A DNA stretch of 64,000 nt from Diphasiastrum complanatum. Its lineage: Eukaryota; Streptophyta; Lycopodiopsida; Lycopodiales; Lycopodiaceae. Position 1 is the stretch's first letter. Every line of letters begins with the position of its first letter. Made by a program: the position numbers and the translations under genes. The stretch lies in the NCBI GenBank assembly GCA_029204225.1, contig CM055110.1, positions 216,408-280,407 on the forward strand, given 5' to 3'. A model generated the notes under the pieces. It saw nothing but the letters and a program-made list of their open reading frames with translations, was not told where the DNA came from and searched no databases. Below are positions 24,766 to 38,690 of the stretch, piece after piece.

Positions 24766-25873
24766 ACAACAAGTACACTGATATCACATGTCAACAAGGC
24801 TTAGATAGACACTCATTCCTTAACATGATGTTAAGGTTCTTGACCCAAGTACACAAATGAAAAGGCCTAAGCATCTTTTGTCCCTATTTATTAAATCCTA
24901 AAATGTCACGTAGCATAGTAAAATAGTACCATATGATAAGGACGAGCTTCATTGTGACCATATGCTTGCTCTTGTGTGTAAAAAAGCTTCTAAGACTTAT
25001 CACATGACCAACAAAGAAATTCGTTCCGTCCTTTTTAGATAGGGCAGAGGTTACAGTAAAAACAATTAAACAACATCATCACAATGGGAAACAAGCCACA
25101 TCTCTCTTTTGCAGTTTTGGGGTGCGCCTAGTTCTATTTGTTTGCAATAGCTTATGGCAACAATTTGTGATTTATGCCTAAATTCACTACACGTGTCCAA
25201 TGAGTTAATTCATGTGGTATGACAATCATTTGTTAACTCATCAAAGATTATAGACATCAAGCATAAGTCATTTTTTGGGTGTTTAGATTCTTTTCACACA
25301 CATTCATCTATGTTTACCTATTTATTTTTTCCTTTCAGAAATGTCTATTTATTTTATGGAATCTCACTACATAGGATAGAGTTGGTGTTTTTGTGGCAAA
25401 CCTTTTAAGGATTACCAGGTTTACGACTTAATCTTCAAAGTTTAGTTTTTAGTTGTTAGTGTTTGGGAAATACAAATCTTTTGATGACTCATTATTATTT
25501 TTTAATGGTTTTCATGGCTTTTTATGCATCCCCAGAAAATCCTCATGGAAGTCCCAAACCTACCAAAAAAAATCAACTCATTACAAAAAGAATTTGGTTG
25601 TTTTAAATCTTATTTGAATGCAAATTGTTCTAGGATAGGCATCTAAGTGATGGTGCAATTATGCGGATTCTCAAATTCAATAAGATTCACGTGATGATTC
25701 CAACAAGAATTCTTTTAATTAATCTAAATTGAAAAGGGGTGCCATTTATATCACTAAATAGTAATTACGTTTTCATCCTAAATGCCATTCTATTTCATTC
25801 TAAATGACTTAAACTAATAGCAAATTAGAGAATGATTGTAAAGTACAAAGTTTGTGGAGCCGTACTATATTAG
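24766..25873 (-). repeat. Inverted-repeat arm X, minus orientation (block 2, truncated)
   Basis: Reverse complement of the X arm. It stops at about 25873, inside the part corresponding to 9600, where it meets a short fragment of copia-B LTR. Confidence 0.85.
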
Positions 25874-27257
25874 TACGATATTACCAAAACCTTTGATGTT
25901 ACTAGATGTCAAAGTAAAACCAAAATATCAGTTGATAACCAGTAACTTTTCACATAACCATCCTTTTGTCTTTTGTATCATCAAATCATACGAATAGCAC
26001 TGCTTCTCTTTCTTGGAAAATGATAATTATATATAGTATATTACTAAATAAATCATAGATGAGGTTATCCCCAACAACGTGCATGATCTCTCTATAGTCA
26101 ATTTTCTTGAAGCTTGTTAGACATAACTAAATATTCAGCTCCCATTTTAGTTGTCACTAGTTGAGCTCAAATTTGTAAGGCCCCTGTTATGAGGAGAAGC
26201 CAGTATTGAGCACGGTTGTTAGTATGGGGTCTAATGTGAGACCATGATGGTTAGGAGATGGCTGGAATGCATAGCAGGAGGTCCTGGGGGATTCGGAGGG
26301 CGGATCCCCCCAAGAAACAGGGGATCCAGGGGGTTTGGGGGCTAGAGCTCCCCAACGGCCCCGACGGTATGGCCTCTTCATCATTTGGCCTTCCGAATCC
26401 CTATGTGAAAAAGACACTTTTGGTATTTCGCTGATCACTCTCTCTGATGGTGGTCGCCACTGTCTAACTACCATATTGAGAAGCATTCCTTAGCAGTTGG
26501 AGTTTATCTATTATTGTGTAGATCAGTCATCCAAAGTATATTCTAGATGGCCATTGAGGCCCTTCTCCAGGGTGCACAGATTGGATAGCACCATCATCAT
26601 ATGTATTGGCTTTATTATCAGATTCACGTTCATTATCTCTTGTCTATGCTGAATTCAATTTTTAATTATAATATTTCAAAAGTATTAATGAACATGACAT
26701 CAATTTTTGGTATGATGATATTGCATCTAATGAATTACTCAAAATATAATGGCATATTTACAAAGGCTAGACTAGCCCCATGTCATGATATCTCATCACC
26801 CAAGCTTCTACTTGGCAAGAGACAAATGCAGAAGAAGTTCTTAAATGAAAGGTAGACACTCAAGAACATGTGTGACAATAGATCTGTTTAAAAAACAAAT
26901 ACTAAAGAGCTCAACCATGAAGCAAGAATCTCTAAGTACATCCAAGTCATTTGCTATGATTGATCATTGTGTGATGTGCATTGCATGATACAAGATCTCA
27001 GGATCTAGTATAAGGATAGTACTCGTAGTGCTAACTTATTTTTGAATTGGATCATCGTCAACAAGATTTGCCATTTTAAATCTTAGTGCTCTAATATTCT
27101 TGGCTACAATTACCAAAGTAAAACATATACACTTCTAACTCTGAATTGGTATCAATAATGTTTGTGACAACTATATTGTCGCCAGTATGATATTACCAAA
27201 ACCTTTGATGTTACTAGATGTCAAAGTAAAACCAAAATATCAGTTGATAACCAGCAC
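25874..27257. other. 1.2 kb foreign segment between direct repeats
   Basis: About 80 bp of copia-B LTR (ACGATATTACCAAAACC...) occurs at 25877-25953 and again at 27185-27257. Between them is DNA found in no other block, with a GC-rich stretch at 26270-26370 (runs such as GGATCCAGGGGGTTTGGGGG) unlike its AT-rich surroundings. That stretch recalls GC-rich parts of gypsy LTRs, but I cannot classify it. The minus frame at 26187-26486 is a by-product of the GC-rich stretch. Confidence 0.5.
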
Positions 27258-27941
27258 GTTTACAACAGAGTACCCCCAATCAACTGATTATGAAGTTTTT
27301 AGCACCCTACAGGATCTTTATGGGGTGTTGTGATTGCACGAGAATGATCAAAGAACGGTTTAGTTGAAACATCCAAGGCAAGAGCACAATGGCATATCAC
27401 AGACCAAAAAACTAACTCCTTACTATGACAGTGCTCATTGTGGGAAAAATAGGCTGCGTACTGAGATAAAATGATAACAAAAAAACTCGGGTAGAGAATG
27501 AGCCCAAAACACCAAAATCTCAATATTCACAATATGGCAAAGCAAGCCAAAGTTTCCTTACATCAATGAGGCTTGAGTTCCTACAGTGGATTTGCATGGA
27601 ATGTCCACATCTTCCAGTTAACTCATATATCATAGATCCACATGTAAAACTGCATGCACGGATGTTGCATGGATCGCATGTCAACTCCCTAAGCCACCTA
27701 GACATGTGTAGATTATGTAAACTGATTTGCATGTTGCATACATGCATTCTGACTAACATTGCATGTCATTTAATATTTTGCATGACATCATAATTGAATC
27801 TACCTAACTCAAATTCAACCTTTTCTAGAAGGTTATCTACTCACTTCACAAACCTTAATGTACAATAAAATATTTACAAGAAATAAGGTGAGCATAGCCC
27901 CCAAAATCAACACAGGAAGATATGTTTTACGGCTTTTTACA
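27070..27941 (-). repeat. Copia-B 3' LTR (block 2)
   Basis: The polypurine tract AAGGAGGAG (27942-27950, minus) is followed by TGTAAAAAGCC. Colinear with 17800-18769 but with only one 73-bp unit and a deletion near 27435. The right boundary is firm; the left one is approximate. Confidence 0.7.
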
Positions 27942-27959
27942 CTCCTCCTTAAAATATAT

Positions 27960-29322
27960 CTACCAAATCACCATAGACTTTGAGATTAAGCCAAGATTAG
28001 ATCTCATCTTGACGAATGCATTCTTGAGCAATGTCTTGGTGAGAAGATCTACAACACAATTTGAAGATCCAACATGCTCCAATAAGATCTCCCTCCCAAT
28101 TACTTTCTCTCTTACAAAGTGATGAGCTACCTCGATGTGTTTTCTCCTTGCATGGAATATAAGATTGTTTGCAAGATCCCGAGCTGAGATGTAGTCATTA
28201 TTGATAATTGGAAGGTCTTCATCTCCATAACACTTTAGCTCCATAAGTAGCCTCTTGATCCATAAAACTTCCTTAGTTGTGGTTGTAAGAGCTTTGCACT
28301 CAGCTTCACAAGATGACAAGGATATAGTTGCTTGCTTATTTGATAGCCAAAAAACTAGATTCCCTCCAATGAGAACCGTGTAATCACTTGTGGATATTCT
28401 ATCCACTCTGTCTCTTGCAAAATACGAGTCTGAAAATGCAACAAAAGTTAGATCGCCTCCTTTATAGATCAATCCATAGTCTAAGGTAGAAGATACATAT
28501 CTCAAGATTCTCTTTGCCAATTTCCAATGACATATCTTTGGATCCTACATGTATTGGCTTAGTTTGTGCACACTAAAACTCAGATCAGGCCTAGTGACTC
28601 TTAAGCAAATAAGAGAGCCAATAAGACTCCTATAAAGAGTGAACTCCTCGAAGGATCTTTTATCCTCTTTTATAGGAACTTTTACAATTTTCTCCATTGG
28701 AGTATCTATGCCTGTACGATTTTCCATTTGAAATTTCTTAAGCATGGAAAGAGCATATCTACTTTGACTTATGAAAGCATGACCGTTCCAAAAGTCAATT
28801 TCTAGGCCTAAAATGTAGTGAAGAACTCCTAGATCTTGCATCTTAAATTCACTACCAAGTACACATTTTGTTTCTTCAAGTAGCTCCTCATTATTTCCAC
28901 TAAGAATGATATCATCTACATAGATGAGAAGAATGACTACAAAGTTATTTACAAACTTAATGTACAATAAAGGGTCGTATTCACTAAGATGAAATATGAG
29001 TGACATGAGAAAGGAGTTGAGCCTTGCATACCAAGACCTTGGTGCTTGTTTTAGTCCATAGAGGCTTTTGAACAAAAGACAAACTTTTGTTTCTTTAACA
29101 ACTTTCACGAATCCAGATGGTTGCTCTATATAAATCTTCTCCTCAAGGTAACCATCGAGGAAGGCATTAGAAACATCAAGTTGAAACATCCTCCAATTGT
29201 GATAACATGGAAGAGAAATGAGAATTCTTATAGTTACCAGTTTTGCAATATGTGCAAAAGTGTCTTCAAAGGCAGGACCTTTGATTTGAGAGTGACACAA
29301 AGTCTTGCATTGAATTTGTTGA
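27960..29322 (-). pseudogene. Copia-B RT-RNase H pseudogene (block 2)
   Basis: Minus-strand copia-B pol from mid-RT to the RNase H end. RT (29300-28545) is well kept: 'FQLDVSNAFLDGYLEEKIYI', '[16 protein letters not shown]', the catalytic 'LIYVDDIIL', 'LHYILGLEI'. A stop follows 'HKLSQYM'. RNase H (28520-27960) carries 'SLSSCEAECKAL', 'ARRKHIEVAHHFV' and 'VVDLLTKTL'. At 29322 the element is cut off at GTTGATGGATCC, where the histone-like region begins; block 1 continues through this point (20150). Better preserved than the block 1 copy, which has FVND instead of YVDD. Confidence 0.93.
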
Positions 29323-29867
29323 TGGATCCATTGAATCGCTATTCCAAAACCAAAATATTATCAAAATTTTTGAAACTATTGGACCCTATATGTATGATCA
29401 AAGCTTGATTTGGAAGACACTTCATACTGGCCAAAGTTATGTAGAATCTATCGAATCAAGCTCCTATTATTCATATTCTGTCCAATATCAGATGAGCACA
29501 CGAGAACCCATACTCTGATTTTCAAATGCTTTATATGCGCGTTGATTAGCTATCGAGTGAAAATTTGGCCTTCGGAATTTTCCAAAATTATAACTATTGG
29601 ATATAAAAAAGGTCTGATATTTAAAGCTTAACATTGTCAATTTTAGCATTAAATGGTAGAAGTGTGATAGCATACTTTTGTAGCATTAATTGTAGATGTG
29701 ACCATATTTTTTTTGAAATTAATTATGGTTAATTCGATATGGACTAATCATTTTGATGACTGATGGATATTTAGATTGATTTGATTGACAAGCCCTGAGT
29801 AATCATCAACATAATCCGAGCCTTGGACATCCAAACCACCACGTTTGTAATCATTTCTGATTTTCTC
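29323..29867. other. Upstream region of the H3-like frame
   Basis: Unique AT-rich sequence not found elsewhere in the window. No gene seen. Confidence 0.5.
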
Positions 29868-29875
29868 TATATATA
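29868..29875 (+). promoter_or_regulatory. TATA box candidate upstream of the H3-like frame
   Basis: TATATATA after a CT-rich stretch, about 230 bp before the ATG at 30102. The spacing would give a 5' UTR of roughly 200 nt. Confidence 0.45.
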
Positions 29876-30101
29876 CTGATCGACGATGCTAAACTTTTTT
29901 TGCTTATAGCTATTTGCATCCATGCGATATCGATTCAGCGCGTTCGAAAACAACTTCCTTCAATCTGTTACTACTCGCTCGCACCCATCCGCTACCAGCT
30001 AACGGATTTGTTGAGCTCAGGTATTGCTTTGACGTGCCCGACCTGAGGTCTGATCCTGAAATCAACATTATCGTGCACTGATCCGCTACTACACAACAGT
30101 A

Positions 30102-30638
30102 ATGGCGTGGACCAAGCAGACAGCACGAGGGCATTCGAGTGGAATACCAATTTCAGGTGAGGGTCAGGGAAATCCACAACAACCACCTCGTCCACCACCA
30201 CCACCTCCTAGGCCAAGGGGCAGAAGAAGAGACTCACCCTGACTCAAGGATTTTCGGAAGCTTCAGAAGAGAAATAATCTTTTGATTCTGAAATCTCACA
30301 TACAGAGATCCATCAGAGACGTTACAAAAAGTCTATCCGTAGATGTGAGATGGACTGTAACGACAATCGAGGTGCTGCACACAACATATGAGAATTTTCA
30401 AGTGAAATTTTTTTCAGATACTATTGTTGCAGCTGTCCATGCCAAGAGGGTGACCATCATGTCCAAGGATTTCAAAATTGTGTTTAGCATGACACATATG
30501 ACAAGTTTGCTGAATATCTACTCCCTCCTCTCCTCTAAAACAAGATTCAGAGAGGAGAAAACGAAAGCAATCTCAACCAACTTGGCTTGTTATTCGTATA
30601 CAGAACATGAGTGTTTCAAAGAAGAGGAGGTCTCTTGA
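30102..30638 (+). pseudogene. Divergent histone H3-like protein with one in-frame stop
   Basis: The first 46 codons start 'MAWTKQTARGHSSG', matching the H3 tail (ARTKQTAR) at 7 of 8 positions, with the Lys4 equivalent kept and Lys9 lost. A glutamine/proline/arginine-rich stretch ('PPRPPPPPPRPRGRRR') follows. A TGA at 30240-30242 interrupts. In the same frame the next 83 codons align without gaps to the H3 histone fold (about H3 residues 48-130): 'LQKRNNLLILK', 'VDVRWTVTTIEVL', 'VHAKRVTIMSKD'. I count 30 identities in 83. Loop 1 is H3 length, without the insertion usual in plant CENH3, although RW and KDF recall CENH3. No stop occurs at the normal H3 end; the frame runs 49 codons further and overlaps the Ulp1-like frame. 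There are no introns, so it could be a retrocopy or a captured module. Confidence 0.85.
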
Positions 30639-32225
30639 CCCTCCATCTAAAGCAAGGCATTTTTCCAAGCCATCTCCTCTGAATACTATTCTTTCTTCTA
30701 GGCATTCTTCTCCTAATTCTCCTTCTAAGTCTCCTTCTTCTCCTTCCACTCCATCTTTAACTTCTCCTGCTAAATCTTCCTCTCCTAATAAATCTCCACC
30801 TCCTAAATCTCCTCCTCGTCCTAAACCTGTAAATATTAATTCCCCTCCTCCTGTTCTTGTAAGTGATTTAGATGATTTTCTTGGTGTAAAGGTAGAACCA
30901 ATTTTGAATGACAATTCTTTATGTAGTTTATCAGTATTACCTATGTCACCCCCTGCACTTGCCTTTGTAAATACTCCTCAATATGTACAGTATGACCAAT
31001 TGTTAAACACATATCTTAAAGGTTTAGGTCCTCGATACAGTTTTAAGATGCCGAAGACCAATGCTAGTCTCCCCCTTTCTAGTTTAGATACTGGTGAATT
31101 AGAAAGTAGGAATAAAATGCTAGGGGACAATGTAGGTGGTGGGGCAATTCAGTACTAGATGGAGGTCTTCCAAAACATGGCTGCATTTGATTTCCCTGAT
31201 TTTAAAAGTCTGCATGATGATATGCTTCAATATGTCAGACTGGAGACTCCAATTCTCGTGCTGCCATACATAACAAAGTAAGTGTCGATTTTATTTTATT
31301 GAATTATTTATATGAATTTTGATTTCACATTGATTCTCATAATTTATTGTTTTCTGATTTCAGTGATCATTGTAGCTTATATGTGTTGTCCTTGTACATT
31401 AATGATGAGGGTGTGTGTAATCCAATTTGTTTAAAGGTGAACTCTATTACACACACACACACAAAATTTCTAGGAACCATATACAGAAAATACTAGAACT
31501 CTTTCCAGTACCAAATGCAAAAGCATATTCCAAGCTGAAAATGGTTGATGCAGAGGTATAAATTTTTCAATATCGATTCAATGTGCCCTTGTAGTTATTG
31601 ATTGGTTTACTTTCATAAAGTGAGCGCTGATTCGATATTCAGTGAAATAATGTTCAAATTTGGATCTGCCATCCTCCCAACAGGTTGATTCTGTCAGTTG
31701 TGGTTGGTATACTGTATGTAATGCCAAACACTTTTTCAGTTGGCTTGCATTACAAGATGGACTTCCAAATCTGGAAGGCGTAATATTCGATTAATTACTT
31801 TTAATTATGTTTTTGTTTTTTTGATATACAAATTTCTATTAACTGATCTTTAATTAATTACCTTCAACTGTGTTTATGTTTTTCTTCAGTTAAAATGCCC
31901 AAAGGTCTCCGCAATGGAGATAATGCACTTCAAGCAGGAGACCATAAAGCTGGTGATCAAAAATTCATATCCAGTTGCAGTGGCCGAGTGTTCTCCACAC
32001 AAGCTACTTCCAACTGGAGAAATGGATTTAGAGATCAACCAATATATACAAGACATCAACAAGGGCAAGCGTCGATTGTAGTGATCATCGGAATTCAAGT
32101 GACTGAAGATCTCCCCAATGGAGATAGTGCATTTCCTGCAGGAGACAATGAATCTTGCTATCGAAAACTCATATTATCCAGTTGCAATTACATTGTGTTT
32201 TGCACCATGGAAATGGAGATCATAG
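30607..32225 (+). pseudogene. Ulp1-like (C48) SUMO-protease family gene, multi-exon, damaged
   Basis: First part 30607-31155: basic start 'MSVSKKRRSLDPPSKARHF', then a long Ser/Pro/Lys-rich linker ('SPNKSPPPKSPPRPKPVN'). TAG at 31156 separates it from the same-frame continuation at 31159. Exons fit GT/AG borders: 31159-31277, 31364-31436, about 31474-31555, 31684-31779, 31890-32081. Together they read 'ETPILVLPYIT', 'NDHCSLYVLSLYINDEG' (the histidine of the Ulp1 HW motif, Trp replaced by Cys) and 'VDSVSCGWYTVCNAKHFFSW' (catalytic Cys in SCG). One base is out of phase at the third exon. The last exon is duplicated: 'SAMEIMHFKQETIKLVI' (31890-32081) and 'SPMEIVHFLQETMNLAI' (32103-32225). Ulp1 proteins cleave SUMO, and copies are often carried by plant Mutator- and CACTA-type transposons. 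Its 5' end overlaps the H3-like frame by 32 nt. Confidence 0.78.
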
Positions 32226-32627
32226 AAATGAAAGAGCCTCATAGAAAAAGTGGTTCATATATTTTCAAAAATGATGTATACAAAAAATTATATTACATAA
32301 TACAAAATTCTATAGTTCATAATCTATGGATCTTCAATTTCGATGGATGTTCCAATGTCTTTGCATTTTATATGCTCCTCCTGCCTTACTCTTACCTGCA
32401 CAAGAGAAATTGTTTTAGTTATATATTTTATGAAACTGATTCACTTAGAAATAAAAAAAAAAGAATATTTTTATATGGCATAACACCTTTACACCATTCA
32501 ATCGAAATTGATTGTACTGAGATAGATCGAATTACAACATGTCTAGTTCTGATCGAATGTGATTGAGACACCAATCTTCCTTGACCTCAACCATTGCAAG
32601 AATGTTGTCATTTATTTTCACTGTTAT
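32226..32627. other. Intergenic between convergent genes
   Basis: AT-rich 3' flank of the Ulp1-like gene. Its first 50 bp (to about 32273) reappear at 54588 with the second terminal exon. The plus frame through this region is a chance reading. Confidence 0.45.
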
Positions 32628-33452
32628 CTAAAGTTGCTCTTGAGGGTTTATACCAAAATCTTGATCAAGTGGCTTCCAAACATTTTTGCATTTAATCCAT
32701 CTTCTATAATACAACAGCAAAGTGAGCATTTGTTTTTCAATGTGATATCTAAATGTCATGGATGAGTAACATACTTTGCACTCAACTTGCTGATTTTGTT
32801 TTGTAACCCAACCATCATCCAACAACTCGGCAATTATATCAACACTCAAGTCCTTACAAATACACATTGTTTTTGTTCTCCCAACATTGCATTTGAAAGA
32901 AAAATCAACAAAAATAGCAAAAGGTAGATACCAACTTAATCTATTATTCTTTGATCTAGTGCTACATTTTAATATACTCTGAATATCAATATATAGCCTA
33001 GATCAAAAACTTTATGAAATTGCTACATCAGGAGAAATCCATTCCTTACTCAAAAAATCTGGTAGAGGATATGGCTCTAATCTACCAATGAAACCATTTT
33101 TATCAGGAAAATAGGTGTGATCATAAAAGAAAACTCCTGCCTCTAAAAGTGATTCTGTAGAATGACCTTTATATTATTAAATACTGATCTCTGAATGTAT
33201 GATATCGATTATTCCTGCAATAGATTGAACTGATTGCCATTCAACAAAATTTGATGGATACAAATCTGCAAAACCAACAAAAACATCTAAATAAAATGCT
33301 AAATCTAAAGAAATTGAATCTGAAAACTTACAATTGCATTTCCTTCCATCATTTGGATTCAGATCATGAATGTTGAGCTCATTGTGAAGATAAGCATGTT
33401 GAACTAAAACTTCCGTGATAGATTGACTGGCAGGTGATACTTTAAAATCCAT
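32628..33452 (-). CDS. Hypothetical spliced gene, convergent with the Ulp1-like gene
   Basis: I do not recognise this gene. Plausible exons on the minus strand: 33452-33334 ('[20 protein letters not shown]' ... 'GRKCN', then donor GTAAGT); an acceptor TTTTGCAG before 'LYPSNFVEWQSVQSIAGI', with a stop soon after (to about 33177); and, separately, an exon near 32890-32770 ('ICKDLSVDIIAELLDDGWV', donor GTATGT) followed by 'RWIKCKNVWKPLDQDFG' to a stop at about 32628. The part above 33340 is shared with the left end of the window (1-100), so the gene belongs to the repeated unit. Exon linkage is my inference. Read-through frames contain the introns. Confidence 0.35.
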
Positions 33453-34548
33453 TATCCTGCCTTTCCAAGAGCTTCTTTATATGTTATCTGATTTTTTTCT
33501 TTTTCGGAATGAGTCTTTTGCAGAGGGATGCATCAAGATCCATTGATATTCTTGATATATTCTTGGTATCCATTGATCTTCTGCATTTTTTTATTCCCTA
33601 ACTTGACTATTAGGCCTAACAACATCTAATTGCCGCAAAAAGGCCTCAAGTCATGTTATTAACTTTTAACTAATCAAATAACTATGTCATCATCGGCTTG
33701 GACTTACACACGCAGGTGTCAAATCACTCTCACTTATAAATATATAATCTAGCTAGGGTTTCCTTGATATTCGTAAACCCTCCAACAATTATATATTGGT
33801 AACCAGGGAACGTTTGAATCACATCATGCTGACCGGTCGAACACCACATTTGGTGTCAATATTTGTGAATGATAGGGATAAGTTGTTGTTACGTGTATTA
33901 CAACATTTTGAATTGGCACCAGTTGGAAGTATTTTGGGTGGGATAACTTCCCCTACAACTGTGTCTACTGCAACATTATTAAAGTTGCCAAAATAAGCCA
34001 ACTTACTTGTTAGATGGGCCATTTTAAGGTATTTTGTATGTATAAGATTGTTTAAGAACTTAGACCTAGTTGTATTAATGTTGTTAGGTAGATGGATTAG
34101 GATAAATTGCTATAGGGATGACTAGGGTGTGTTCAGTAACGTGTAGATAGGACAAAAAGCACCAAAAAGATTGTTTTTAGGGTTGTTGATTTAGAATGGA
34201 AAGATCATATTCAGGTAAAGAGGAATGGAAGTTGAACGGACTGGAAGAAACCGCATGTGTGACAATGGAAGTTGATGTGGTCTTAGCAATGGAAGTTATA
34301 CCAACCACAAGAGAACTACATACAAAACAGTGGCGGTCTTTTGCGGAGTTGTGGGAATGGTGAGTTCAGGATTGTATAAATAGGGAACTTGTAGTCACAA
34401 AGGGGACTCTTGGTTGTACACTAGATAGCAAAAGTGTGATCAAGCATCAAAAGGCTTAGAGCCGAGCATTATGTGAGTTGTGATACAAGTTTATGTCAAG
34501 CTGTAGGCTGCAAGTAGGAGTGCCTTGCTTAAGACCTTTTGAGTAGTC
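33340..34548 (+). repeat. Repeated unit, diverged copy (block 3)
   Basis: Colinear with the window's first 1216 bases (offset 33339 at the start), differing at a few percent of positions. Contains a truncated orphan LTR-like segment from 34082 (TGTTAGGTAG) to about 34548, where AGTCTTGGTGG is shared with copia-A integrase. The rest of the LTR, the palindrome array and the GA tract are deleted here. Confidence 0.9.
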
Positions 34549-36562
34549 TTGGTGGAAAGTCACCATATGAAATCTTATATTTGAAGAAGCCTAAGGTTGA
34601 TCACCTTAGAGTTTTTGGATGCATATGCTTTTCTCATATTCCCTTGGAAACAAGGAAGAAGGAAGATCCTAGTGCATGCAAAGGAATCATGGTTGGATAC
34701 TCATCCACCAAGAAGGCCTATAGAGTATTTGTGCTCTCTACTTCTCAAGTTATTGAAAGTAGAGATGTTGTCTTTCATGAAGATCAACACTCATATTTTG
34801 AAGAGGCCGAGATCAAGAAGTATATGGATGCATCACCAATTATTTATTTTGAAGACAATCATGATGTGATGGGGTCGAGATTTGAAGAAGACTCTCCTCA
34901 GATTTTCTCACCAAGAAGATCCATGAGAGATAGATCTGAGCCTAAGAGGCTCTCATATGTTGACAAAGGCAAACAAGTGGATCTTGATTCCACTAATTAT
35001 GTTTTTTATGTCTCTCATGAAGAGCCAAATAATGTTCAAGAGGCACTCAATACCAAGGAGTGGTATGATGCCATGAAGCAAGAGTATGATGCATTGATCA
35101 CCAACAATACTTGGGAGCTGGTGGATCCTCCATCCAACAAGCATGTGATTGGTTGGAAGTGGGTATTTCGGATCAAGTTCAATCACAATGGCACCATCAA
35201 CAAGTATAAAACAAGATTATGTGCCAAAAGATTTGCTCAAATCCATGGCCTTGATTATGAGGAGGCGTTTTCACCCGTTACAAAGATGGTGACAATAAGA
35301 ATTCTTATTTCTCTTGCTTGTTTCTTTAAGTGGAAGGTGTTCCAATTAGATGTATCCAATGCTTTTCTAAATGGTTATCTTGAGGAGGAGATCTATATGG
35401 AACAACCTCAAGGATTCATCAAGGATGAGTACAAAGTCTGCTTGCTCTTCAAAAGTCTTTATGGACTCAAGCAAGCACCAAGATCATGGTATTCAAGACT
35501 TAATTCTTTTCTTATCTCACTAGGATTTACTCTTAGTGACTATGATCCTTCCATGTATCTAAAGTTTGTTGATAGCAATATTGTCATTCTTCTAATTTAT
35601 GTTGATGACATTATTCTTTGTGGAAGCTGTATCAAGCTAGTTGATGAAACTAAGATAACACTTGGATGTGAGTTTAAAATGCAAGATCTAGGAGAGATAC
35701 ATTACTTCCTAGGCCTAGAAATTGTTTTTATAGAAATCATGTCTTTATATGCCAATCTAGATATACTCACTCTATGTTGAAAAAATTCCATATGGAAAAT
35801 TCTAAGAGCATAGATACTCCAATGGAGCAAATTGTAAAAGATCCTAATAAAGGTGATGAAAGATCCTTTGAGGACATCACACTTTTTAGGAGTCTTGTAG
35901 GCTCCTTGATATGGCTTACCATTACTAGGCCCGATCTAAGTTTTTGTGTGCACAAATTGAGTCAATTTATGCAAGATCCTAAGATCCATCATTAGAAGAT
36001 GGCCAAAAGGATTCTAAGATATGTATCTTTATCTTGTGATTATGGTCTACTTTATACAAGTGAAGATCTATCCATTGTTGGCTACACGGATTCGGACTTT
36101 GCAAGTGACAAGATGGATCGAAAATCTATTAGTGCATACACTGTCTTTCTTGGAGGCAATCTAATATCGTGGCTTTCCAAAAAGCATGATACTATATCTC
36201 TCTCTTCATGTGAGGCCAAGTACAAAGCACTCACTACAACTACCAAAGAGGTGCTTTGGATCAAGAGGTTATAAATGGAGCTAAAGTGCATCAAGGAAGA
36301 TGATCTAACAATGATCAAGTGTGATAACATCTCGGCCCAAGCTCTTGCCAATAATCCCATATTTCATGCAAGAAGCAAGCACATAGAAGTGGCACACCAT
36401 TTTGTGAGAGAAAAGCTTATTGGAGGAGAAATCTATTTGGAGCATGTCAACTCGTCCTCTTGTATTGCCGATCTACTCACCAAGCCTTTGAGCAAAAGTG
36501 CTTTCATCAAGCATAGATCTAATCTTGGAGTTATATCAAGATCAATGCTTAAATTTTCATAG
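34549..36562 (+). pseudogene. Copia-A integrase C-terminus to RNase H pseudogene (block 3)
   Basis: Open for 413 codons (34539-35780) from the integrase C-terminal region ('LRVFGCICFSHIPLETRKK') through the linker and RT to 'LGLEIVF', with YVDD intact. Lesions are a frameshift near 35730, TAG at 35993-35995 (Trp, the same site as in block 1) and TAA at 36272-36274 (Leu). RNase H is otherwise kept, including 'ARSKHIEVAHHFVREK' and 'IADLLTKPL'. It lacks the stop at 7397 and the Trp stop at 8251 of block 1, so those arose after the blocks separated, while the shared Trp stop is older. The integrase catalytic core is deleted. Confidence 0.94.
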
Positions 36563-37308: not shown

Positions 37309-38690
37309 ATGCAGCTTCAAAAATAACATGGCTGTTAACATGACATCAAATGACATGCTCTCACCTAGTTATAGTGCATTGAGGTTTGTAGACATTGCTT
37401 CAAAAATGACATGGATATTAACATGACCAGTCACTTGGCTGGGTTTACATCATTACATATCTACATCTTCAAAATAGTTTGGCCCCAAATAATAAATTTT
37501 GCCTTTACTATGAAAATTTTAATACATTAGGACAAAGTTAGCTCATTTAAACTTCTATATCATATACAAAAAATCTAAACTGCTTATCAAATGTATAATT
37601 TATTACAAAGTAGGGCTCCACACACTTTGTAATTTACAATCATTCTCTAATTTGCCATTAATTAAAGTCATTTAGAATGAAATAAAGTGACATTTAGGAT
37701 GAAATGGTAATTAATGTTTAATGATGTAATTGGCCTACTCCCTTTTCAATTTAGATTAAGACAATTCTTGTTAAATTTGAGATAATGCTTAGATGCCTAT
37801 GCTAGAACAATTTGCATTCAAAATAAGATTAAAGATCAAGCAAACAATTTCTGTACTGAATGTAAAATTTGTAGGTTTGGGACTTCTATGTGGATTCCTT
37901 TGGGGATGCATAAAAACCCATGAAAACCATTAAGAATTAATATTGTGTCATCCAAAGTTTGCATTTTCTAAACTTTAACAACTCAAAACTAAACTTTGAA
38001 GATTAAGTCATAAACCTGGTAATCCTTAAAAGGTTTGCCACAAAAATACCAACTCTATCCTATGTAGTGAGATTCCAAAAATCAACAAACATTTGCAAAA
38101 GGAAAAAAATAAACAAATAAACATGTCAATATAGATGAATATGCGTGGAAAGAATCTAAACACCCAAAACATGACCTATGCTGGATGTCTACAATATGTG
38201 ATGAGTTTTCAAATGACTATCATACCACATGAATTAACTTGTGAAGTGAATTTAGTCATAAATCACAAATTGCATCCATAAGCTATTGCTAACAAATAGA
38301 ACTAGGTGCACCCCATAACTGCAAAAAAGAAATGTGGCTTGTTGCCCGTTGTGATGTTGCTGTTTAATTATTTCTACGGTAACCTCCACCCTTTCCAAAA
38401 ACGAAGGAACAAACTTCTATGTTGGTCACGTGATAAGTCTTAGAAGCTTTCCCACACAAGCATATGGTCATAATGAAACTCTTCCCAATCATATGGTACT
38501 ATTTAAATACACTATGTGCCATTTTAGAATATAATAAGTAGGGGAAAAAGATGCATAGGCCTTTTCATTTGTGTACTTTGCTCAAAAACCCTAACATCAT
38601 TTTAAGGAACGAGTGTTTATCTAAGCCTTGTTGACATGTGATATTATTGTATTTGTTGACATGCGATATTAGTGTACTTCTTGTGATAAT
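37309..38690 (+). repeat. Inverted-repeat arm X, plus orientation (block 3)
   Basis: Colinear with 9287-10668; its inverted partner is at 45000-46480. The 84-codon frame seen in block 1 is broken here. Confidence 0.88.

Follow-up and report, generated by a model that had tools for sequence, protein, structure and literature searches.

A divergent histone H3 frame in the window, the stretch of 64,000 nucleotides of the Diphasiastrum complanatum genome analysed here, is a degraded copy of a gene of a dispersed plant DNA transposon, to judge from its copies and their ends. The element is repeated and bounded by inverted repeats, and the gene, as read in other copies, runs from an ARTKQTAR start through a Pro/Arg linker, an H3 fold and a Ser/Pro linker into a protease-like region. 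Both the H3 fold and the N-terminal part of the protease-like region (protease N-part) are under purifying selection. We consider the chance somewhat better than even that the transposon encodes a chromatin-acting fusion protein, with H3 at its N-terminus, a Ser/Pro linker and a Ulp1/C48-like protease at its C-terminus. The features are collected in Table 1.

Table 1. Features of the window copy (window positions) and genes read in other copies of the element (distances from the H3 start).
Feature	Position	Strand	Basis
Composite repeat: copia fragment, H3-transposon fragment and right-hand sequence	26133..34554	.	Shared locus edges
H3-transposon fragment	29333..33592	+	Homology limits to other copies
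H3 tail start, MAWTKQTARGHSSG	30102..30143	+	Frame translation and copy comparison
Pro/Arg-rich linker replacing the remaining H3 tail	30144..30239	+	Frame translation and copy comparison
H3 histone fold, TGA as its first codon	30240..30485	+	Pfam, PDB, host H3 alignment
Frameshift relative to copy L021 (approximate place)	30486..30490	+	Pairwise DNA alignment
Ser/Pro linker and N-terminal protease region, in another frame of the same gene	30607..31158	+	Frames, copies
Remainder of predicted exon 1, ending at GTAAGT donor	31159..31277	+	By eye; pattern positions
Predicted exon 2 with putative catalytic His (codon 31368-31370)	31364..31555	+	Translation, patterns
Predicted exon 3 with putative catalytic Cys (codon 31699-31701, VSCGW)	31684..31779	+	Translation, patterns
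Gene D counterpart, degraded (approximate)	32470..33160	-	Mapped from L021; no Pfam match above cut-off
Transposase-like gene	~-5.7 to -2.9 kb	+	Frames of copies
Minus-strand gene upstream of the H3 gene	~-3.0 to -1.4 kb	-	L015, L021
Minus-strand gene D	~+2.9 to +3.6 kb (+2896..+3591 in L021)	-	L015, L021

In the window, positions 30102-30485 encode the H3 tail start and the H3 fold. The frame, its start, its tail and the TGA at 30240 are all as the first-pass annotation had described them (MAWTKQTARGHSSG... from 30102), and its assignment to the histones holds in a profile search (Pfam PF00125 Histone, E=8.2e-17, residues 33-126 of the window frame). The best 60 of 177 PDB matches all belong to histone H3 or to H3-like/Cnp1; the lowest E among them is 8e-16, and the top match aligns from residue 1 of the frame. 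The fold aligns without gaps to host H3 (L044), with 31 of 82 residues identical (38%), where 30 of 83 had been counted before. Loop 1 is indeed of H3 length, without the longer CENH3-type loop, in a comparison with part of Arabidopsis CENH3. The range originally given for the frame, 30102..30530, stands up to ~30488. Because the reading frame departs from the true frame of the gene at about this position, 30488-30530 is out of frame and represents shifted sequence.

Across copies, the tail is conserved at its very start. The commonest form is MARTKQTAR, followed by G/V, H, S/P and GG, and H3 tail residues 1-8 and Gly12-Gly13 are retained in the element copies. The loss of Lys9 and retention of Lys4 first noted in the window extend to the family: Lys9 is absent in all 32 copies, frameshifted ones included, and Lys4 is present in 27, with GAG in four of the other five. 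In a set of 24 copies, none has Lys9 and none departs from Lys4, Gln5, His10 or Gly13; Arg83, Lys115, Arg116 and Lys122 are likewise invariant, and Arg63 is lost in every copy (H3 numbering). The replacement of Arg2 by Trp was correctly read in the window and has the appearance of private decay at the CpG of a CGG codon: among 32 copies the codon is CGG in 15, CAG in seven, TGG in four, TAG in three, and TGA, CGA and CAC in one each (L034 and L040, whose sequence begins one codon late, are left out of this count). Beyond the tail start, the Pro/Arg linker cannot be aligned with the H3 tail, and nothing in the element H3 corresponds to the stretch of the tail that bears Lys27. Some copies carry lysines within the linker (e.g. 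RGKRR). Copy L015 matches Pfam Histone with E=2e-19.

The whole assembly (1.74 Gb, 5,176 contigs) was searched for copies. With 30102-30638 as a DNA query, all 40 scored matches, the window included, are 88-100% identical (1,230 first-look candidates). With the frame of copy L015 as a protein query (351 aa from its Met), all 116 scored matches are relatives at 70-100% identity (10,574 first-look candidates, of which those left unscored are not taken as copies). A stop is present in 107 of these 116 matches; the other nine, as counted from the table of matches, are uninterrupted. Homology among copies extends from beyond -4.9 kb to ~+4.6 kb around the H3 start. In the C12 copy, the element is ~10.6 kb long and has imperfect 35-bp terminal inverted repeats, 86% identical, with outermost bases close to CATTAGGGG. 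Both element ends are repeated in their own right: for each, all 40 places scored, one of them the origin of the query, are matches (1,644 and 1,568 first-look candidates). Three insertions were read at both ends (C12, C6 and C14, the last with a duplicate, C634), and no target-site duplication is established in them: shifting the ends of the C12 copy outward by one base would allow a CTT duplication, and the C6 and C14/C634 insertions show nothing consistent.

The transposase-like gene has a coiled-coil-like start followed by IIVIKLDESE, HLAGDLK...CLYC and WSSQGMEKSHW, a pattern that, read by eye, suggests the DDE type with a C(2)C insert. It has no Pfam match above cut-off and none in the PDB; the BLYB and GP57 families listed by Pfam score under their cut-offs and are regarded as chance matches. 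No hAT transposase was found among the transposase-like pieces and no 8-bp target-site duplication in the three insertions, and the same pieces have no match to a MULE transposase. Neither of the two minus-strand frames has a Pfam match above cut-off. Among the element pieces given to Pfam, the H3 part alone passes a cut-off. A viral origin was rejected, as the eight viral-contig stretches that matched a pattern encoded no relative.

The window copy itself is, by all appearances of its sequence, a dead passenger: cut, frameshifted and stopped. It has neither transposon end and no transposase-like gene. At its left edge (29333) the element fragment adjoins a minus-strand copia reverse-transcriptase fragment, and this junction is common to six of 20 loci (L009-L013 and L016), some of them internally rearranged. 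The left edge of the composite repeat, 26129-26133, is shared by four of the six, the other two beginning within the repeat, and the right edge at 34554 is shared by all six. Pieces of the composite repeat are also found at other loci, at ~90-99% identity. Taken as a unit, this combination of copia and H3-transposon fragments has multiplied as well. An inverted repeat of ~1.1 kb, 81% identical, flanks the region (window 24767-25866 and 37609-38658).

In other copies, a single long frame passes through the H3, the linkers and the protease N-part. L015 has one open frame of 364 codons from stop to stop, reaching from the tail through the start of the region after the Ser/Pro linker, and L027 (C17) has 417 open codons that cover H3, linkers and protease N-part to the end of predicted exon 1. 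Downstream of exon 1 come a GTAAGT donor, a DHWSLYVLSL stretch and a QQVDSVSCGWYTVCN stretch. The fusion gene has at least three predicted exons with limits drawn by eye; the start of predicted exon 3 is approximate, with a Gln codon directly before. For the joined exons of L024, the sole Pfam family listed is Peptidase_C48, at E=0.27 and 11.5 bits versus a cut-off of 20.7, and exon pieces searched singly have no C48 match in Pfam. Against the PDB, the top two matches of the joined exons are SENP8 (E=0.17-0.18) and the third is a pilus assembly protein (0.53). The putative catalytic His and Cys are found in the window and in all six other translated copies; the His lies in DHW in these six and in DHC in the window. 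By eye, Gln is present at Cys-6 and Asn at His+17. The candidate third catalytic column is occupied by Asn in the H3-protease copies and, in the divergent relative L047 described below, by Lys with an adjacent Asp. The protease-like region is probably a Ulp1/C48-like cysteine protease.

Selection was estimated as pooled pairwise dN/dS on 24 of 34 copies, belonging to two subfamilies of 16 and eight, which were assigned by hand from motifs in the tail and linkers (L036 falls between the two). The estimate omits the ten copies that are frameshifted or disrupted early (L009-L013, L016, L022, L023, L028 and the window) and, for the linker or protease part, some of the 24. The 95% intervals are from a column bootstrap and are rough, because copy pairs share branches. 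Between subfamilies, dN/dS is 0.28 (0.18-0.44) for the H3 fold and 0.37 (0.24-0.61) for the protease N-part, versus 0.65 (0.31-1.6) for the Pro linker and 0.68 (0.48-0.97) for the Ser/Pro linker. The tail value of 0.22 (0.07-0.65), from 14 codons with 927 of 1000 bootstraps usable, overlaps the linker intervals; cleanly separated, with intervals that do not overlap, are the H3 fold and the Ser/Pro linker alone. The difference between the H3 fold at 0.28 and the linkers at ~0.65-0.68 indicates that selection kept the histone. Among copies of the larger subfamily, dN/dS is 0.57 for the H3 fold, 0.38 for the protease N-part, 0.53 for the tail, 1.13 for the Pro linker and 0.98 for the Ser/Pro linker, the pattern to be expected from copies decaying once inserted.

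Two divergent relatives were found. L047 (G000:C8:18046500-18048000; Pfam Histone 7.5e-25) starts with MDRKKQTRR and so is without the ARTKQTAR start. Its His exon is identical to exon 2 of the H3-protease gene at 15 of 47 positions (pair E=1e-7), and the region before that exon gives a weak match (E=0.003 over 33 residues). L048 (G000:C7:61149900-61151500; Pfam Histone 6.7e-24) starts with MARTKQIAR (tail start MARTKQIARPKST) and has, by eye, a SHHWSV motif. Since the stretch before this motif cannot be aligned to the H3-protease copies and the H3 frame has a stop, the layout of L048 is treated as a lead only. The downstream pieces of both relatives have no C48 match in Pfam. In the phylogenetic tree, L048 groups with the H3-protease copies at a support of 100/99. 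The larger group that also takes in L047, whose branch is long, has 90/80, which does not earn the tool's star. The likeness to CENH3 noted earlier in the RW and KDF residues finds no backing as kinship in the tree, where the Arabidopsis CENH3 part joins host H3 rather than the H3-protease copies; its branch is long, and the support of 93/89 again falls short of the star. Nor does the H3-length loop 1 support such kinship.

Among the cargo known from transposons are genes captured from the host, factors that counter silencing, and Ulp1 domains. Compared with canonical H3 and CENH3, the element protein shares the tail start, a gapless H3 fold and many core residues, and differs in having a Pro/Arg linker where Lys9 and the remaining tail would be, in the loss of Arg63 and in its long C-terminal extension. 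Precedents exist for each half of the gene. A fungal hAT element of ~9.5 kb spread H3 to hundreds of copies in Pseudocercospora, Cercospora and Sphaerulina; their identity to the coding sequence of the host gene is 51-55%, 90% of them are truncated, and all but the original are said to be inactivated by RIP (PMC6710886). Both systems are DNA transposons carrying many copies of an H3 distant from the host gene. The distance is ascribed there to RIP, whereas here the H3 fold is under purifying selection; the accessible text describes no fused protease, whereas here the frame continues into a protease-like region; and the present host is a plant and its element has no hAT match. On the protease side, Kaonashi (KIU) elements of the VANDAL/MULE type carry Ulp1 in a non-transposase gene of the VANC group, and Ulp1-bearing genes of this group in Arabidopsis elements are tied to hypomethylation of related elements (PMC13317346). 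The word 'histone' is absent from the main text of this review (PMC13317346). The present element is likewise a plant DNA transposon with a probable Ulp1-type domain outside its transposase-like gene; unlike VANDAL/MULE Kaonashi, which have no terminal inverted repeats, it has inverted repeats of ~35 bp and no MULE match. Mutator and Ginger1 elements also carry Ulp1 domains, and Ginger1 transposases are described with Ulp1 or OTU domains, Ulp1 being fused to a gypsy-integrase-like transposase (PMC2836005). Ginger1 resembles the present element in having Ulp1 in a transposon protein; here the probable Ulp1-type region follows histone H3 instead. H3 on fungal DNA transposons and Ulp1 on plant ones are known; a literature search covering few subscription journals returned no case of an H3 under selection joined to a region resembling a protease.

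Of the three origins first proposed for the frame, the last, an H3 mimic on a mobile unit, agrees with the repeated copies, the shared flanks and the inverted-repeat ends. A fast-evolving host H3 variant does not fit, given that host H3 genes are separate and that a frame 38% identical to them has at least 116 scored matches; a retrocopy fits no better, as this repeated H3 with the same low identity forms, in other copies, the front of a longer frame with several exons. Both were rejected in view of the number of copies, the flanks shared with the element and the long frame that the copies have in common. Despite the H3 tail start and the CENH3-like RW and KDF, it is for the same reasons, together with the inverted-repeat ends, extremely improbable that a host H3 or CENH3 gene turned into a pseudogene or was retrocopied at this place. 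Another possibility is that the element picked up H3 by chance as a passenger, its conservation reflecting recent common descent. Chance capture was proposed for the fungal hAT, and the prevalence of stops among the scored matches is in line with it. We nevertheless regard this as very unlikely in view of the contrast between the H3 fold and the Ser/Pro linker of the same frame, and of L047, in which an H3 fold is followed by the same His exon despite its divergence.

The remaining alternatives concern what the protein does. The H3 part might serve, in the manner of a chromodomain, to direct the transposition complex to particular chromatin, with the protease processing element proteins. Retention of the residues near Lys4 and replacement of the other tail would suit such a role, but the H3 gene is distinct from the transposase-like gene, and we judge this somewhat unlikely. 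The H3 might also be a decoy for host readers, writers or chaperones, followed by a C-terminal region that is not a protease. This would agree with the C48 score under the cut-off and with the lack of a C48 match for single exons, L047 and L048; the His-Trp and Gln-x5-Cys-Gly in register, and C48 and SENP8 at the top of the lists in two libraries, make it distinctly unlikely.

If the gene encodes a chromatin-acting H3-protease fusion, as we prefer, the element would have captured H3 long ago and maintained it by selection during its multiplication. The H3 part would let the protein associate with the H4 of the host and become built into chromatin or attached to it, where the ARTKQT start could still be recognized and modified at Lys4. 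Because Lys9 is absent and the Lys27-bearing part has no counterpart, the usual silencing marks would be unwritable on the fusion. The protease part may strip SUMO-like modifiers at chromatin, and removal of SUMO could oppose silencing of the element or aid its transposase. Nucleosome entry, deSUMOylation and anti-silencing by the fusion protein are what we infer. A stricter version, in which the fusion forms H3-H4 nucleosomes that accept the Lys4 mark and neither the Lys9 nor the Lys27 mark, while the protease strips SUMO from the silencing machinery, yielding silencing-proof chromatin, appears unlikely. If the general reading is true, it would represent histone mimicry by a transposon, with a selected H3 that retains its tail start, is joined to a protease-like region and is repeated across a plant genome, and would offer a handle on how elements escape silencing based on H3 Lys9 and Lys27.

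The host H3 genes are separate from the transposon, with 13 matches at 97-99% identity to a canonical H3 query among the matches listed. The same query gives, among the matches listed, many further places at 44-57% identity, and 23 of the 25 of these that were read belong to a second multicopy H3 family (L045 at G000:C10:2472700-2474300, L046, L049 and L051-L070). L045, L046 and L049 have a long Pro-rich stretch followed by H3 to about its natural end (...KDLHLARRLRRER), and L045 matches Pfam Histone with 1.9e-28. In the tree, 22 second-family copies form one clade, supported at 100/99, apart from the H3-protease copies. Between its subfamilies silent sites are saturated and dN/dS takes no value; within the main subfamily (16 copies) it is 0.39 (0.28-0.57). 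This second family is characterized by a Pro-rich N-terminus and a fold ending in RRLRRER, and comprises two subfamilies.
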